The position numbers and the translations under genes were made by a program. The notes under the pieces were generated by a model. The model was not told where the DNA came from and ran no database searches. It worked only from the letters and a program-made list of their open reading frames with translations. This document shows, piece by piece, positions 6,482 through 18,303 of a stretch of 21,675 nt of DNA. The DNA comes from a virus: the IMG/VR virus record IMGVR_UViG_3300037488_004069, positions 1 through 21,675 of that record, one strand, 5' to 3'. Numbering within the stretch: the stretch's first letter is position 1; each line of letters starts with the position of its first letter.

Positions 6482-7241
6482 TTAGACGCCAGTCTGGTTA
6501 ATCGTTGTAAGAGCACCGGTACCAGCAGTCCAACGCAGAACATCATCGAGATCGTACGCTTTAGTGATACTAATGTTCTTCGCAATAGAGACAGCCTTAC
6601 CTTCGTTCAGGATACCGAGACCATAGCGTTCGCGGAACTTAATGGTACGAATATCCCGATTCGGATCATCCCACTCTTCATTCGTGACATCTTCATCAAT
6701 GACGATAATACCAAGTTCGTTGGTATCCGCCATGATGATGTCTGTCTTCGCCGCGGTACTACCAGAGGCTGCCGTGTAGCTTAAGAACGGGGAAACAATG
6801 ACCCGCAAAGGAGACGGGAACATATTGGGAACATTTGCAAACGTCGATGCGGTATAAGGAGCAGCCGCAGTAGGACCAACGTTCACACCGCCCTGATACC
6901 AGGATTTAGCCACACCGGGCTGACCCTGCATAGGACCAAACATGGGCCCACCGTTCGCAAAACCAAAGGCACGCAGGATAGGATCGCGAGCGAACAGCAA
7001 CCAACCAAGCGGACTCATCAGCAGAGCGTTCGGAACAAACCCATTTGCTACAACCTTCGAATACATTACCAGAAGATCATCGAGCGTGATAGTCCCGTTA
7101 CCAGAACCATCGGAAGCGCGACCTGACGTCTTCTTCGTAGAGGTGTTGTTGTCGAACGTCACAGCACCTTCGTTACGGATCATGTTAAAGATCTTCGTTT
7201 CTTTATGACGAGCAAGTGCACGGCCCGCAGCGCGAATATGC
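6482..7241 (-). CDS. Major capsid protein, exon 3
   Basis: This is the C-terminal part of the HK97-fold major capsid protein, about 252 residues. Its first base completes an ATG codon begun by exon 2, giving the junction SM|HIRAAGRALARHKETK, a typical spine-helix segment of this capsid family. Further on are LDDLLVMYSKVVANGF, LLMSPLGWLLFARDP and, near the C-terminus, IIVIDEDVTNEEWDDP and IRTIKFRERYGLGI. An open frame continues upstream to 7306 but that part is intron. Joined lengths of the three exons (477 + 68 + 760 bases) are divisible by three and give a 434-aa protein, normal for this family. A 158-base structured spacer follows. Confidence 0.88.
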
Positions 7242-8153
7242 CAATATGTTACCCCGGTCGTATGGGGGTTGACGCATTTCTGGTCAACTCTTGCAGTTAC
7301 CTGCAAGTTCGGACTATGTCATCACTTACTTTCGTAAGTGCCAGTCGCTATTCTTATCAACTTTATACGTAAGAGAGGGATGGATAAACGGTCTTATCAC
7401 TTCAACTAGCTTTTCGAATTCTGTGCCATTTATCCTTATAACATTTTGTCCCATGACATTTTTTATTGTGCAATCTATTAAGTGTTCGCCTTTCAGATAC
7501 CCGATTATCTTTCGATTGTCGTCTTCAGAAAATGACTGGGTCGATAACGTTGCTTCCCACCCGGCGCTTCTGTACTGACCAACCTTCTCATCGGAGCTTC
7601 TATCTTCCTTCGAACACCTTTTCCAGTGATGATACAAATTACCATCATCCATCCACCAGATTGCCAATGCCATTGGGCTCAAATACGAAAGAACCTTGTC
7701 TGTTATAACTTTCTTATTACTACTATATACCGTCTCATGAATTTCTCTATATACCGGATGAGCCATACTTGAAACCGTAATGAATTCCCTCGAATCATTA
7801 TAAGAGTTATTAGGTTTCCAAATGTTCTCTCTCATCCGTGTTTCTTGTGACAATATACCAGACTTCCATCTCGCGTATTCTATCTGCTTAGTTGAGTGGC
7901 ACATAACCATTATTACTGAGTTGCCTCTTCTCCTCAAATGCCCGTCACCAAGCGTCATCCCAACAATTGCGGATTTTAAATCCCTCTTATTCAACATGGA
8001 ATTGCTCCCATTATAGTTAAAGTTAATAGTTAGTCTCTAGGGGTTCCCGCGAATTCTGGGCTTCCCACGAAGTTTTCCTCAGAGAGGAGTTTCTCCGTTT
8101 TCAACTGGTTTATTGAGCACACATTGTTCCGCATCGCGGACGTAATCCCTTCT
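7242..8153 (-). ncRNA. Group I intron 2 of the capsid gene (912 nt, LAGLIDADG-bearing)
   Basis: The exon ends in GAGCAT, and the intron contains GTGCTC at 8115-8120. These pair in full as P1 with the required U.G at the splice site. ATGT just before the guide (8121-8124) pairs with the exon 3 start GCAT as P10. The R element CTAGAGACTAAC is at 8029-8040 and S (CATAGTCC) at 7311-7318, so P7 can form. A CACTTAC-GAAA-GTAAGTG hairpin (7323-7340) and a P9 hairpin with a GTAA loop (7290-7307) flank S. The last intron base is G. The endonuclease gene lies between R and S, in the P8 region. These features together make a self-splicing group I intron very likely. Confidence 0.88.
7326..7997 (-). CDS. 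LAGLIDADG homing endonuclease in capsid intron 2 (223 aa)
   Basis: The enzyme would cut intronless capsid genes at the insertion site and drive intron homing. Two LAGLIDADG motifs are visible: AIVGMTLGDGHL (residues about 10-21) and LSPMALAIWWMDDGNL (about 105-120), each with the catalytic acidic residue (LGDG and MDDG). One polypeptide with both motifs would act as a monomer. The ATG has GGGAG upstream, and a TATAAT lies further upstream at 8010-8015. The last codons and stop are encoded by the intron's own hairpin next to S, so protein and ribozyme share sequence. The frame is intact. Confidence 0.9.
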   Translation of the reverse strand: MLNKRDLKSAIVGMTLGDGHLRRRGNSVIMVMCHSTKQIEYARWKSGILSQETRMRENIWKPNNSYNDSREFITVSSMAHPVYREIHETVYSSNKKVITDKVLSYLSPMALAIWWMDDGNLYHHWKRCSKEDRSSDEKVGQYRSAGWEATLSTQSFSEDDNRKIIGYLKGEHLIDCTIKNVMGQNVIRINGTEFEKLVEVIRPFIHPSLTYKVDKNSDWHLRK

Positions 8154-8221
8154 ATGCTCATAACATCATACTGCGAATAACGCAGCATTTCATCTGTAAT
8201 ACGAACTTTCACACCGGATTT
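8154..8221 (-). CDS. Major capsid protein, exon 2 (68 nt mini-exon)
   Basis: It encodes K S G V K V R, then ITDEMLRYSQYDVMS plus two bases of the next codon. This is the segment that joins the end of exon 1 (VAVF) to the RAAGRALARHKE helix of exon 3 in capsid proteins of this type. It begins right after the terminal G of intron 1 and ends at GAGCAT, the P1 exon strand of intron 2. Without splicing the frame runs on into intron 2 and stops at the TAA in the R element. The exon is only 68 bases, so both introns sit within one short stretch of the capsid gene. Confidence 0.85.
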
Positions 8222-8900
8222 CCCGATGAATGCCGTGCAGAATTGTTACTATATAAGATTTGTAATATCATTATTACAGCATGGGCAAATTATCTTGTGT
8301 CCAGGGATGTGTTTTTCTATGGTTGTTAATTCCAAATTCTCAACCCTGTTATCATCCCTTACGCCATTAATGTGATGAACAAATTCATAACTTTCCAATG
8401 GCCTGCCCAACTTCTGTGACATAACTAAACGATGCTCAAAAATTCTACCCTTCTTATCTGCATTCGGATGTCCTTCTGAGTGGATAATTTTATATCCTCT
8501 TGAATCTATATACCCACCCATCCAGTTCCAGTGCCTCTCGCCGCAATGTTTCTCACCCGTTCTCCCTCTCTTAACCCCATATTTTACCAAGTAATTGTAT
8601 ACGGTCTTAAGGTTGACTCCGAGAGAATTTGCTATTTCTTGTTGCGTGAGATTTTCACCCCAATACTTCTCTTCTAGGTATTCTTTAGTTATGTCTAATG
8701 CTTGCATATTACTCCTTATACGGCTCAGATATTTCTACTGAACTCTGCATGTTACCATGCAGATCGGACTATCACATCGCTAAATTCCAGCGTCTCATCG
8801 TTTAGTCTCTCACGGTGGCTAAAAGTAAGCCTTCCGCCTTGTTGTCCAGAATGTCATCGGTTATTCCACTCTGGATATTCAAGTCAATTAGATGGGATTT
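8222..8900 (-). ncRNA. Group I intron 1 of the capsid gene (679 nt, HNH-bearing)
   Basis: The exon end GTATTT pairs with the guide GAATAT at 8875-8880, ending in the conserved U.G pair. Bases before the guide partly pair with the exon 2 start (P10). The R element GAGACTAA is at 8802-8809 and S (GATAGTCC) at 8766-8773, with a short P8 hairpin (CGCT/AGCG) between them. A P9 hairpin with a GTAA loop is at 8745-8762. The terminal base is G at 8222. The HNH gene lies 3' of the core, after P9, unlike the endonuclease in intron 2. The intron's first six bases (AAATCC) repeat the first six of exon 2. Confidence 0.88.
8249..8707 (-). CDS. HNH homing endonuclease in capsid intron 1 (152 aa)
   Basis: The HNH core is FVHHINGVRDDNRVENLEL (residues about 108-126), with the HH pair and the Asn-rich NxxxNL end seen in phage HNH_3-type homing enzymes. 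The N-terminus has a helix-turn-helix, LTQQEIANSLGVNLKTVYNY (about residues 20-39), likely for DNA recognition. The C-terminus ends with CPCC. It would cut intronless capsid alleles to spread intron 1. The start has AAGGAG four bases upstream and the frame is intact. Its place after the ribozyme core rather than in P8 points to an origin separate from the intron 2 enzyme. Confidence 0.88.
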   Translation of the reverse strand: MQALDITKEYLEEKYWGENLTQQEIANSLGVNLKTVYNYLVKYGVKRGRTGEKHCGERHWNWMGGYIDSRGYKIIHSEGHPNADKKGRIFEHRLVMSQKLGRPLESYEFVHHINGVRDDNRVENLELTTIEKHIPGHKIICPCCNNDITNLI

Positions 8901-9377
8901 AAATACGGCCACTATGTTAACCGTACCAGCAACTTCGAGTTTGCGCTCCGGGTATTCCCCACCTTCCGGGATATCTTCAGCGGTGAATGCGCCAGCCGCC
9001 GGGAAAGTGATCTGCTGACCCGCCGAGAAACGGATCGTGTGTAACAAGCTGGTACCAACTAACAAGGGCTCGATAGCTTCCTTCACAATATTGGAAACAA
9101 CTTTACCAATAAGGATGGATGCATCGGGCGTAGAAAGAGCGTCAACGAGTTCCTTAAATCCAATCTTCTGATCTTTCTTAGAAGCATCGTACTGATCAGC
9201 TGAATTTTCGAAACCATTGTTGCCCCAGATCTTCTCTGCATTCTCATACTTCTCCTGCAACTTCGCATCAGAGAAATATTTGCGTGTGGGGGTCTCTCTC
9301 GTGCCGATTTTATCGAACACCTTGGCAGCTACGGCACCAACGAGCTCGTCCGTAAGTTCAATTTTCTGATCTGCCAT
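8901..9377 (-). CDS. Major capsid protein, exon 1
   Basis: This exon gives the N-terminal 159 residues of the HK97-fold capsid protein. The start has AAGGAG upstream. The N-terminus is helical and charged (MADQKIELTDELVGAVAAKV), followed by LLVGTSLLHTIRFSAGQQI and an E-loop-like part, AFTAEDIPEGGEYPE. True coding ends at VAVF. The open frame continues 99 bases into intron 1 and stops at the TAA in the R element, so a simple ORF call would give a false 191-aa protein. Position after the protease-scaffold and decoration genes is normal for a capsid gene. Confidence 0.88.
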
Positions 9378-14060: not shown

Positions 14061-15659
14061 CTATGGCCATAGTATCGGACTCGGCATGTCATCAATCGTG
14101 ATATTCCTTCGACAGTCGTCGAGCCTGCTTGAAATAGCGGCTACCTTGGCTGAATCGGCCTGATTCATTACCTTCGCGACTATCGTGCTATCACCTACGG
14201 CCAAGCCGTCCTCTATGGCAACCTGTTGCTCTGGAGTGATAAAGCTATTGTAAATATTAGGACGATCTTCTACCGGGTATGAATAATGAGTTGGACTATT
14301 TATACCATCGAGAATTTTATTAACTTCGTCAGACTGAGGCGTATCGTTCATTCCGCAGTTTGCAGATAGCTCCGAAGCTCTAACTATAGTGTTAAGTATG
14401 TTAATCGCCTGGTTTAACCACTTGCTCTCTCCGGCATGAAATATCTTCATCTCCTGAGACAGCCTTTTTAATTCATGCTCCTTATACCACTCATGCAACA
14501 TTTCGCGTATGTAGTTCTCTGCGTACGACACTGCTGCATCAAGGTACTGCAATATCAGCTGCTTTACAGGCAAACACTCGAACACCTTTGTTCCGCCGTC
14601 CTTAAGGCCTTCGATCCATCGCTTAACTGGCTCAACGACCCGACTGAACATCTGAAGTATAAGGTTCATCAACTGATTCATGATCAAATTTCTCATGAAA
14701 TTGTTGAACATATCTCGAAACGCGTTCAGAATATCCCCGAAATCCAAATTCATCCCAGATTTCAAGAACTGCAGCATAGTCAAGAACGCTTTAAGTGTCT
14801 TCGGATCGAGCTTAACAATGTATTTCATGAAACAGCATATCAGATCTGCTGTCCACTGAGTACCAAGAAGATCATTAAGACTATTCAGGAATCTATTGGT
14901 ATAGTCTATATACCTCTCTGTCACCCCTGCAATGTCTCTGTCTGGCTTCAGTTCAACTAAATCCTTAAACATCCCATCGAACTGCTCGAGATCTTTCCGT
15001 CCGGCTTCCGAGTACCCATTCCAAAGGCCCCTGAATCCGTCGATCTGAGATCTCTCTATCATCACATCGCCCTTGAACGCCCACGGCTCATACTCCGGGG
15101 AAGGGAACGTTCCTAGATATCCATCGCAAAAATTAAGGATCTGCCGAATGTCATAGTCATACGAGTTCCAATACGATATTGCATCATCAATTAGCGAGTT
15201 CGATCTTCCATCGTACGATGCGTACCCACTATAGATGCTGTTTTGAATCAGTTGAGAGTTCGCAGTCGGATCATTGCTAGAGTTAGAAACAATATCCTCT
15301 ACCTTGATACTACTAACTCCTGCGTTAACCTGCTCGGCTAACCTTTTATATAACTCATACGTTACGTATTCGCCGCCGCTCTCAGGATCAACAGTGGCCA
15401 CGGCCACCGACACATCGTGATCATTGGTCTTATCTACTGGGATTCTTAATCCAGCGCTTGTATCGTCAATCCTCTTGTTTAACTTATCGGCCTTCTTCTT
15501 TAGGTCGTCAAGATTAGACAAGTACTTGCTTGGAGTCATCTTCTCTTGGGGGCTTGATGGGTTAACGAATCCTTGTGACAAGGACATAACCCGTTCTCTA
15601 TACCAGCTAATCTTGGCTTTATACTCTATGTTTGAAGCGTCAGATTGATTTAAAGCCAT
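14061..15659 (-). CDS. Uncharacterised large helical protein between terminase and portal (532 aa)
   Basis: I do not recognise this protein. GAGGATAA precedes the ATG and the gene ends 31 bases before the portal start. It is largely helical. The N-terminal 80 residues look coiled-coil (LSNLDDLKKKADKLNKRIDD). The centre (about residues 280-350) has amphipathic Met/Phe-rich helices such as AFRDMFNNFMRNLIMNQLMN, and another helical part runs to EWYKEHELKRLSQEMKIFHA. There is no clear signal peptide or Walker motif. Its location suggests a virion or portal-associated component. Met/Asn/Phe-rich helices would fit an internal, membrane-contacting or portal-binding part, but this is speculation. Confidence 0.8.
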   Translation of the reverse strand: MALNQSDASNIEYKAKISWYRERVMSLSQGFVNPSSPQEKMTPSKYLSNLDDLKKKADKLNKRIDDTSAGLRIPVDKTNDHDVSVAVATVDPESGGEYVTYELYKRLAEQVNAGVSSIKVEDIVSNSSNDPTANSQLIQNSIYSGYASYDGRSNSLIDDAISYWNSYDYDIRQILNFCDGYLGTFPSPEYEPWAFKGDVMIERSQIDGFRGLWNGYSEAGRKDLEQFDGMFKDLVELKPDRDIAGVTERYIDYTNRFLNSLNDLLGTQWTADLICCFMKYIVKLDPKTLKAFLTMLQFLKSGMNLDFGDILNAFRDMFNNFMRNLIMNQLMNLILQMFSRVVEPVKRWIEGLKDGGTKVFECLPVKQLILQYLDAAVSYAENYIREMLHEWYKEHELKRLSQEMKIFHAGESKWLNQAINILNTIVRASELSANCGMNDTPQSDEVNKILDGINSPTHYSYPVEDRPNIYNSFITPEQQVAIEDGLAVGDSTIVAKVMNQADSAKVAAISSRLDDCRRNITIDDMPSPILWP

Positions 15660-15676
15660 TTATCCTCATCGTATTT

Positions 15677-15761
15677 GGTGCGCCCGCCTGGCAACCGACA
15701 GGGGGGATAAGTCAACTGCCAGCGGTTCTCCCCTTTGGGAAGACGGGCTATCCAGCGCACC
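15677..15761 (-). ncRNA. Pseudoknotted RNA structure downstream of the large terminase gene
   Basis: The spacer between terminase and the next gene folds on the minus strand as a closed unit. P1 is seven pairs (15755-15761 with 15677-15683). P2 is a seven-pair hairpin with an AAA loop (15737-15743 with 15727-15733). P3 is a long stem (15714-15725 with 15684-15696, one bulge), extended by GAC/GTC (15711-15713 with 15697-15699). Its loop has TATCC (15705-15709), complementary to GGATA (15749-15753) between P1 and P2, giving a pseudoknot. No U-tract follows. The arrangement resembles a structured RNA or riboregulator more than a terminator. I know no family that matches. Confidence 0.5.
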
Positions 15762-15765
15762 AGAA

Positions 15766-17610
15766 CTAAAAGCTCGCCCTTCCACCAGTGCTTGGGCCTC
15801 GCATCCTTCTCAACTTATTGATAGACGAAGTAGGCCTCTTATCTTCTACTCTTCTTTGTTTCACCCTCATAAAATCTATTGTGTTACGTGCTGTGGTTTC
15901 CTGGAACATTGGTTTGCCGAACCATCGAGGAGATATTGCCAATCGCTCCCTCTTCTCTTGGTCAACCTTACTTCTATTCAAAAGATAATCTTTAGTTACC
16001 TTCTCTCCAAACTTACCAGCCACAGAGATATTTACTGATCTTCCCTGCTTGTTTATGTCGCTGAATTCCATGGTAGCAGCGAGAATAGATAGCATCCATG
16101 CGGCTATCGCGTGATCGTTCTCGTCACTGTACACTGGCTGGCCCATCGCCGTCGTTCGTATTACAGTGTAGTCTCTAAGCTGACCAACGAGTCCGTTCTT
16201 AATATCCTCAGACTCTGGGAGGATAATCTGTCCGTCTTCCATACGACGAGCGGCAAGATTCACAATAAACGGCTTCATGTGCTTCTTGACCATCTGTTTC
16301 GTGACAGGATCACGTATTTCCATCTTGTCGCCGAAGTAGATGCCCTTGACTTTATTGGCTAGCCCTGTCAGCGGATTCTCAAGCCCATACTTACGAAGCA
16401 TTTCTATCTGGGTTGCCCCGTAACCTACGTCTACATATATGAACTCAGGATTCCATATTTCATTGAGTTCTATGACTTCCTCGCACGATCTGACCTGCGT
16501 GAACTCTTCTTGTGTAATTACCTTCTTGGCGGCCACCTTAAACGCTCCACGACCACCGTTCAGCCCCTTGTTCCACTCATTAACGATGATACATGTTCCA
16601 TTACCTGCCGTGTTCCAATCCACCCCTATTGTATACAAAGAATCATGGTTCTTTCGAACTTTGTTAAGATCGTAGTCCTGGAGGCTAGCATCAACAAACT
16701 TCTTAAGGAACACGCCCTCTGCTATGTCGCCAAACTCAGCTTCGAATTCATGCTTATAACCGGCGTCGGAATACTGAGCTCTCTCAATACGCTCTGTCTG
16801 CACACTCCACGACGGAGACACGCTTGAAGGAAAATGAAACTCCTTATATCCAAGCTGAGCCTCTGTGCAAAACCGCCAGAACATGTCTCGCTTGCCAGTT
16901 GGTGTTGAAGACGCCCAAATCAAAACATCGGGCCTCGACGCCTGGATAGCAAGGATTACTTCGAAGTCACTTGTACTAAGATAATCAGCCTCGTCAATCA
17001 AGATCATGTGTGCGTCTTGACCACGGATACCAGTTGATTTACTGCCTGTTCTAGTACCTGCTGTGAACCCCAAGATCTTTGATCCGTTGTGAAACTCAAC
17101 TCTATACGGATTCTTAGTGTTTCTCTTAATGGATGACTTAAGCGATTCGCTCTTCCCCATGAATGTGTCGAGCTTATCGAATATAAGTCCTACCTGGTTT
17201 TTGTACGGGGCGATCACTAGAACAATAATATTCTCGTGAGTATACGCGTAGTGTAGCATCCGTATACAGATCGCCTCAGTTTTACCTGATCGCCTTCCGA
17301 TTCGACTGACTTTCCTTAGTGCGCTACACTTGAGCATCACATCCTGGTACCAGCGAGCATCCCATCCAAGCTCAGTCTTTGTCCAAAGGACAGGATTATA
17401 TAGGAAGTTGGCGAAGGCCATATCATCATCACCCATCAGCCTCTTAGCCTCTTCACTAACCTGCATCTCTTCGTGTATAAGATTACAGATCTGAAGATCC
17501 CACTCGCCGCCCTTGTCCTTAAGGAACACCTTCCCACCCTTCTGGTACCACACGCCAGCGTGATCCTTCAGACAACGCTGACAAAAAGGATGGATCTCTG
17601 TTTTCTTCAT
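15766..17610 (-). CDS. terL: Large terminase subunit, TerL (614 aa)
   Basis: This is the packaging motor ATPase and nuclease. The Walker A-like motif is RIGRRSGKT (residues 103-111) and Walker B is MILIDEAD (202-209). The RNase H-like nuclease acids are in IGVDWN (about D331), YVDVGYG (about D394) and SDENDHAIAAW (about D499). The N-terminus has a possible Cys pair, PFCQRCL. I choose the start at 17610. An upstream in-frame ATG at 17655 lies inside a stem-loop and has no ribosome-binding site. The site before 17610 is also weak (GAAATGG), so the start is uncertain. It would dock on the portal and cut concatemeric DNA. Confidence 0.95.
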   Translation of the reverse strand: MKKTEIHPFCQRCLKDHAGVWYQKGGKVFLKDKGGEWDLQICNLIHEEMQVSEEAKRLMGDDDMAFANFLYNPVLWTKTELGWDARWYQDVMLKCSALRKVSRIGRRSGKTEAICIRMLHYAYTHENIIVLVIAPYKNQVGLIFDKLDTFMGKSESLKSSIKRNTKNPYRVEFHNGSKILGFTAGTRTGSKSTGIRGQDAHMILIDEADYLSTSDFEVILAIQASRPDVLIWASSTPTGKRDMFWRFCTEAQLGYKEFHFPSSVSPSWSVQTERIERAQYSDAGYKHEFEAEFGDIAEGVFLKKFVDASLQDYDLNKVRKNHDSLYTIGVDWNTAGNGTCIIVNEWNKGLNGGRGAFKVAAKKVITQEEFTQVRSCEEVIELNEIWNPEFIYVDVGYGATQIEMLRKYGLENPLTGLANKVKGIYFGDKMEIRDPVTKQMVKKHMKPFIVNLAARRMEDGQIILPESEDIKNGLVGQLRDYTVIRTTAMGQPVYSDENDHAIAAWMLSILAATMEFSDINKQGRSVNISVAGKFGEKVTKDYLLNRSKVDQEKRERLAISPRWFGKPMFQETTARNTIDFMRVKQRRVEDKRPTSSINKLRRMRGPSTGGRASF

Positions 17611-17884: not shown

Positions 17885-18031
17885 TCACTGACTATTGTGA
17901 CCGCGCTTATAGGTTCCAGCCTTACCGGTCTTCGTCTTGAACTTTAGTTGCGTAAAATTGCCCTTGCCTACCTTAACTGATTTTGAACTGGCCGCTTTTT
18001 TAGCGTCAGCCAATGATGTATAAGTTTCCAA
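17885..18031 (-). CDS. Tiny basic protein with TTG start, tandem paralogue 1 (48 aa)
   Basis: This small gene starts with TTG at 18031, eight bases after a good GGGAGG site. It reads L/M-ETYTSLADAKKAASSKS, then a basic segment ending in KRGHNSQ. It shares the TY-x-L-x-DAK-x-A opening with the next gene, and that paralogy supports its reality. Its first 64 bases overlap the 3' end of the HNH gene in another frame. The HNH gene thus holds both its ribosome-binding site and its start. Confidence 0.6.
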   Translation of the reverse strand: METYTSLADAKKAASSKSVKVGKGNFTQLKFKTKTGKAGTYKRGHNSQ

Positions 18032-18303
18032 GATTCTATCCTCCCGAATACTTTGTTAACCAGGTATTCCACAAAACTTAGCTCTCTACGAAATGTCTTC
18101 CGATGACAGCGTCTACACAAAGTTACCCCGTTTGATAATGCATACTTCAATTTAGGAAAGAGTGATTTTGGAAGTATATGATGTGGGTTCATGATTTTGT
18201 TATTCCGGCCGCACACAATACAACAGTGTTTGTCTCTTTCGTAAACCTTAGTTCTCCAATCAATCCACGACTTACATCTCTTCTTACGATAGTACCATTT
18301 CAT
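17968..18303 (-). CDS. Free-standing HNH endonuclease (111 aa)
   Basis: The HNH motif region has CCIVCGRNNK, then MNPHHILPKS, ALSNGVTLCRRCHRKTF. The two CxxC pairs should bind zinc and the HH...N...H residues form the beta-beta-alpha-metal active site. The N-terminus is very basic (KWYYRKKRCKSW). It is not in an intron as far as I can see. HNH enzymes beside terL are common in tailed phages, where some assist packaging-end cutting and others are selfish homing genes. Either role is possible here. The ribosome-binding site before the ATG is weak (GGCGGT). Its 3' end overlaps the following tiny gene. Confidence 0.85.
   Translation of the reverse strand: MKWYYRKKRCKSWIDWRTKVYERDKHCCIVCGRNNKIMNPHHILPKSLFPKLKYALSNGVTLCRRCHRKTFRRELSFVEYLVNKVFGRIESWKLIHHWLTLKKRPVQNQLR

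Follow-up and report, generated by a model that had tools for sequence, protein, structure and literature searches.

A conserved four-way-junction RNA between terL and the following gene in a clade of uncultured contractile-tailed phages

What does the short spacer behind the terminase gene (terL) of an uncultured phage contain, and does it act as DNA, as coding sequence or as RNA? The stretch analyzed here, 21,675 nt of the IMG/VR record IMGVR_UViG_3300037488_004069 (positions 1 to 21,675, in the following called the window), raises this question, and the initial annotation had answered it with a compact structured RNA directly after terL whose closing stem and long third stem were expected to covary. 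This core claim is strongly supported by homologues, and we describe a well-supported structured RNA family without an Rfam match that is fixed at one gene junction across a phage clade. With this element it can be tested in a defined way how terminase and head genes are balanced in phages or, alternatively, whether terminase-linked RNA exists beyond phi29-like phages.

The locus and the fold of the spacer

All recognisable genes of the window (HNH nuclease, terL, gene X, portal, head protease, capsid and tail) are located on the minus strand, and the element in the spacer between terL and gene X has to be read on this strand as well. The presence of a tail sheath gene identifies the phage as contractile-tailed, and its endolysin matches suggest that it infects bacteria. 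The genes next to the spacer are:

17968-18303, minus strand: HNH-nuclease-like open reading frame just upstream of terL, also found in L003, L004 and L005
15766-17655, minus strand: terL, terminase large subunit (Pfam PF03237, PHROG 2), stop codon at 15766-15768
15663-15667, minus strand: GAGGA, probable Shine-Dalgarno (SD) sequence of gene X, read from the sequence
14061-15659, minus strand: gene X, 532 aa, function unassigned, next gene downstream of terL, ATG at 15659

HNH proteins adjoining terminases are known packaging parts. The structure prediction for gene X was unusable (pLDDT 48). Further downstream, the major capsid gene looks split (6482-9377, minus strand): 6482-7306 corresponds to its C-terminal portion (Pfam Phage_capsid_4) and 8802-9377 probably to its N-terminal portion. 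Two genes, one of the HNH type (8249-8707) and one of the LAGLIDADG type (7326-7997), lie in between, and a group I intron match with a score below the gathering threshold (33.8 bits, E 3.6e-6) was found at 7290-7474.

Relatives of the window were gathered via terminase homology, and all counts refer to distinct sequences. Type 1 denotes the 13 sequences with the architecture of the window, the window counted, and type 2 five sequences with a diverged architecture (L017-L020 and L028). The element of the window comprises the following parts, listed from 5' to 3':

15677-15761, minus strand: whole element, a four-way-junction (cloverleaf) RNA of 85 nt (fold z -3.5; 12 further homologues that share fold and position and show compensatory changes)
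15755-15761, minus strand: 5' strand of P1, GGUGCGC (fold; covariation)
15744-15754, minus strand: P1a, a short local arm, UGG-AUAGC-CCG (MFE; tree null 1/2000; segmented by hand)
15727-15743, minus strand: P2 hairpin, UCUUCCC-AAA-GGGGAGA (fold; tree null 0/2000)
15711-15725, minus strand: 5' strand of P3, CCGCUGGCAGUUGAC (fold; tree null 0/2000)
15700-15710, minus strand: L3, C-rich loop UUAUCCCCCCU with the C-run at 15701-15706 (C5-C8 in 13/13 type-1 members; CCCC in type 2)
15684-15699, minus strand: 3' strand of P3, GUCGGUUGCCA-G(bulge)-GCGG (fold; tree null 0/2000)
15677-15683, minus strand: 3' strand of P1, GCGCACC (fold; covariation)

The minus-strand fold has a free energy of -42.9 kcal/mol (z = -3.5), which was equalled by 2 of 200 shuffles, and the plus-strand fold is weaker (-38.0 kcal/mol, z = -1.9). 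Three helices recognized in the initial annotation are recovered on the minus strand: the seven-pair closing stem corresponds to P1 (7 bp, with support from covariation), the seven-pair triloop hairpin to P2 (7 bp), and P3 (15 bp with one bulge) is the annotated long third stem. As also annotated, the unit (15761-15677) fills most of the spacer between the terL stop codon (15766-15768) and the next ATG (15659), with 4 nt between the stop codon and P1, and lacks a U-tract; in line with this, no intrinsic terminator or terminator-like site was found in the window. A U8 run directly after P1 is present in only one of the 13 type-1 members, L009 (L009:3139-3146), where the element together with this run would be terminator-like.

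Covariation and the proposed pseudoknot

The 13 type-1 sequences were placed in a manual structural alignment, for which every sequence was segmented by hand, P1a most of all. This alignment revealed 378 paired cells out of 385, and 25 of the 33 pair columns contain compensatory types; on a MAFFT alignment, RNAalifold predicted 24 pairs, and compensatory changes occur in 20 of these. Swapped-strand permutations reached the observed pairing in 2 (P1), 142 (P1a), 7 (P2) and 0 (P3) of 20000 cases. In a tree null, which places the changes of the 3' column randomly on the terminase tree (unresolved at its base), 0 (P1), 1 (P1a), 0 (P2) and 0 (P3) of 2000 draws did so. The covariance model has an effective sequence number of only 4.3.

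The manual alignment of the 13 sequences contains 47 G.U cells versus one A.C cell, which indicates that selection acts on an RNA, transcribed in the mRNA sense. The same ratio disfavors a DNA-level element. A coding extension or frameshift was also rejected: one spacer frame is open in the window and none is consistently open in the relatives. The GC-rich spacer and its one open frame in the window could be taken as signs that the fold arose by chance, that the element acts at the DNA level or that it hides a coding sequence, but covariation beyond the tree null, the G.U excess and the lack of a consistently open frame in the relatives make any of these three explanations negligible.

The initial annotation had furthermore proposed a pseudoknot of five pairs, GGATA with TATCC, between these two strands:

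15749-15753, minus strand: GGATA, proposed as 5' side of the pseudoknot (unsupported in swap test and tree null)
15705-15709, minus strand: TATCC, proposed as 3' side of the pseudoknot (unsupported in swap test and tree null)

Both strands are present, but their pairing does not co-evolve (swap p = 0.81; tree null 355/2000), and GGAU is kept in three members whose loops read CUCC, UUCC or CACC. The check on homologous spacers therefore upheld the part of the annotation that concerns compensatory changes in P1 and P3, and not the part on the pseudoknot. P3 comprises 13-15 bp across the members, and its 15 bp in the window correspond by our estimate to ~42 angstrom. As GGATA lies one nucleotide from P1 and the loop beyond the 13-15 bp of P3, the two strands would hardly be able to meet as long as both stems stay intact. 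Most of the proposed 5' strand is instead taken up by P1a, which pairs locally in the window as UGG/CCG (MFE) or GG/CC (centroid) and varies together with its local partner among the relatives (GGAU/AUCC, GAGAU/GUCUC, GAC/GUC, AGG/CCU). With these bases placed in a supported local arm, a four-way junction describes the element better; its last arm is tipped by a C5-C8 loop. P1a has only 3 bp in the window, so that an alternative pairing specific to the window keeps a small probability.

Distribution and position of the element

A structured spacer was found at the same point in 17 further distinct phage sequences, 12 of type 1 and 5 of type 2; every contig with a terminase of at least ~57% identity that continues past terL carries it. 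On the terminase tree the two types are sister groups (support 80/93 for type 1 and 95/98 for type 2). In type 2 a long hairpin precedes a short CCU-UUAA-AGG arm, and the last arm is retained, as illustrated by GCTGGTGGTT..ATCCCC..ACCATCAGC, which is shared between L005 (type 1) and L018 (type 2). In the loop of this arm, a run of C5-C8 is conserved among type-1 members and one of C4 among type-2 members. Stem sequences and even arm sizes drift among the relatives while the structure stays.

The element occurs once per contig, for which reason a mobile or repeated element was rejected, and in the sequences searched its only site is between terL and the following gene within one terminase clade. 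DNA-pattern scans for occurrences outside this clade yielded chance-like matches only; hits in L039, on our reading an RNA-phage-like contig, and in L248 (13 bits) were judged to be chance matches. A contig with a very close terminase and RNA relative, L035 (QMND01000139.1), is binned into a MAG of Shapirobacteria (CPR). The terL profile had no match in any other of 287 genomes sampled from the Shapirobacteria phylum, and this host link may therefore be a binning error.

In the sister clade (~43% terminase identity) the element is absent, both at the junction and elsewhere in the contigs searched. A distant homologue of gene X follows terL there as well, where compared, and most members show a TAATG overlap between the two genes. 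Such an overlap is the usual arrangement for translational coupling. That the same two genes are mostly overlapped in the sister clade makes the junction look regulated. In more distant phages, long hairpins followed by U-runs, terminator-like, occupy the same junction (L075:4570-4695 and L076:4573-4688), so that three different solutions are found at one site.

The spacing to both genes is tight. P1 begins -1 to 4 nt past the terL stop codon in 12 of the 13 type-1 members (the exception is L062 with 51 nt), and in L002 and L016 P1 overlaps the stop codon by one base, its first G. The next start codon follows ~13-23 nt past P1 in 12 of 13 members, with a TTG start read for L062. The exception here is L005, in which a homing-endonuclease-like gene (L005:6505-7026, plus strand) is inserted between the element and gene X; the element itself is intact beside terL. 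The SD sequence of gene X is predicted to be unpaired in the type-1 fold.

Possible functions and known RNA classes

The options listed in the initial annotation, a cis-regulatory RNA, a processing signal or a trans-acting RNA, are still the right ones. The element is a conserved structured RNA in the late mRNA of this uncultured contractile-tailed phage clade, and we assume, as the most likely of the readings considered (probability roughly 0.45), that it is a cis-acting intercistronic control element. This assumption is based on the strong covariation together with the G.U bias on the mRNA-sense strand, on the presence of the element at the junction in every clade member with a readable spacer and at no other place searched, on the tight spacing to the genes on both sides in 12 of 13 members, and on the TAATG arrangement in most of the sister clade. 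For the mechanism we infer an action in cis coupled to termination. The closed fold would bring the stop codon of terL and the start codon of the next gene near each other and would occupy the mRNA just 5' of the next ribosome-binding site. A ribosome ending terL would melt P1, for which the ribosome footprint is an argument, and the C-rich loop would dock a putative trans partner, either a protein or a G-rich RNA. As a net effect, the output of the downstream head genes would be set relative to terL.

Against control in cis speak the separation of element and gene X in L005, the unpaired SD sequence and the finding that the C-rich loop does not co-evolve with the SD sequence of the next gene (p = 0.31), by which a pairing of L3 with this sequence was rejected. 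The missing co-evolution and the L005 insertion argue against a simple SD switch and keep two other explanations alive, a processed RNA with a C-rich loop and an mRNA-processing site. According to the first, a small RNA would be cut from the late mRNA and act in trans by pairing of its UCCCC loop with G-rich SD sequences of host or phage. We consider this possible, but rather unlikely. The sharp boundaries closed by P1, the C-run that both types conserve at the end of the last arm while the flanking sequence drifts, GGGGAG-type SD sequences on several phage genes, the retention in L005 despite separation from gene X and the precedent of RNAIII (PMC2837412) are all consistent with it. On the other hand, neither a terminator nor a consistent promoter-like site was found, the loop complementarity to the next SD sequence is unspecific and the element is always locked to one junction.

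The second explanation, a processing or stability site, is likewise a minor candidate. P1 (7 bp) and P3 (13-15 bp) would form a predicted duplex of ~20-22 bp if stacked coaxially, a suitable length for a cut by RNase III or for blocking a 3' exonuclease, and the mRNAs of terL and of the head genes would thereby have separate fates. The conserved structure with drifting stem sequences is in line with this, and precedents for control of an upstream gene by a 3' element are cited in PMC2864571; conserved P1a and the C-rich loop, however, exceed the needs of a duplex cut site. A further proposal, according to which the late mRNA would release a phage RNA of a new class that acts on its own in head assembly, in packaging or in host takeover and docks through its C-rich tip, appears doubtful to us. 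We regard a put/EAR-like RNA for processive antitermination, which would modify RNA polymerase entering the head genes, as very unlikely: a structured RNA ahead of the head genes within a long late operon would fit, but there is no sequence or Rfam match and no terminators were found around the element. An intercistronic control element in cis remains our preferred reading.

Intercistronic and 3' structured RNAs are already known as broad kinds, and the element belongs to no tested family. No Rfam family matches at the gathering threshold, below which a chance match to flg-Rhizobiales appeared at E 3.2. No description of the element was found in the papers searched, which did not include a survey of 224 candidate structured RNAs. 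A tRNA or tRNA-like element is also not indicated, since ARAGORN found none, L3 has no T-loop and a CCA after P1 is not conserved.

The phi29 packaging RNA (pRNA) had been named in the initial annotation as a loose parallel, and its family is contained in Rfam. Both are phage RNAs whose structure is kept as the sequence drifts, and the element adjoins terL in all members, a positional link to a packaging gene. However, phi29 pRNA has a three-way junction (PMC5340915), whereas the element has a four-way junction, sits after terL within the late operon, lacks a complementary loop pair (at most 2 contiguous pairs between loops, and 4 for L3/L1a in the window alone) and has no Rfam match, so that the parallel fails in junction order, loop complementarity and family membership. 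Furthermore, in the sister terminase clade such an RNA is missing from the junction and from the rest of the contigs searched. A cysteine-bearing N-terminus of TerL, considered as a clade-specific RNA binder, was rejected because it is also present in that clade. A tie to packaging beyond adjacency to terL is thus unsupported, and a role as part of the DNA-packaging motor seems highly improbable.

In Staphylococcus aureus RNAIII, C-rich loops with an unpaired run of the UCCC type pair with G-rich SD sequences (PMC2837412). The element also carries an unpaired C-rich run in a hairpin loop, but differs in its four-way junction and in that its loop complementarity to the SD sequence of the next gene is not specific. 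The L17 downstream element and other 3' structured RNAs (PMC2864571) resemble it as conserved structures directly after a gene, with the strand inferred from G.U pairs. Structure and gene are different, and here a second gene follows within ~25 nt. RNase III sites between cistrons occur in late and early phage mRNAs, for example in T7. Like these sites, the element is a structure between phage genes on one transcript, but with its conserved four-way junction and C-rich loop it goes beyond a duplex cleavage site.
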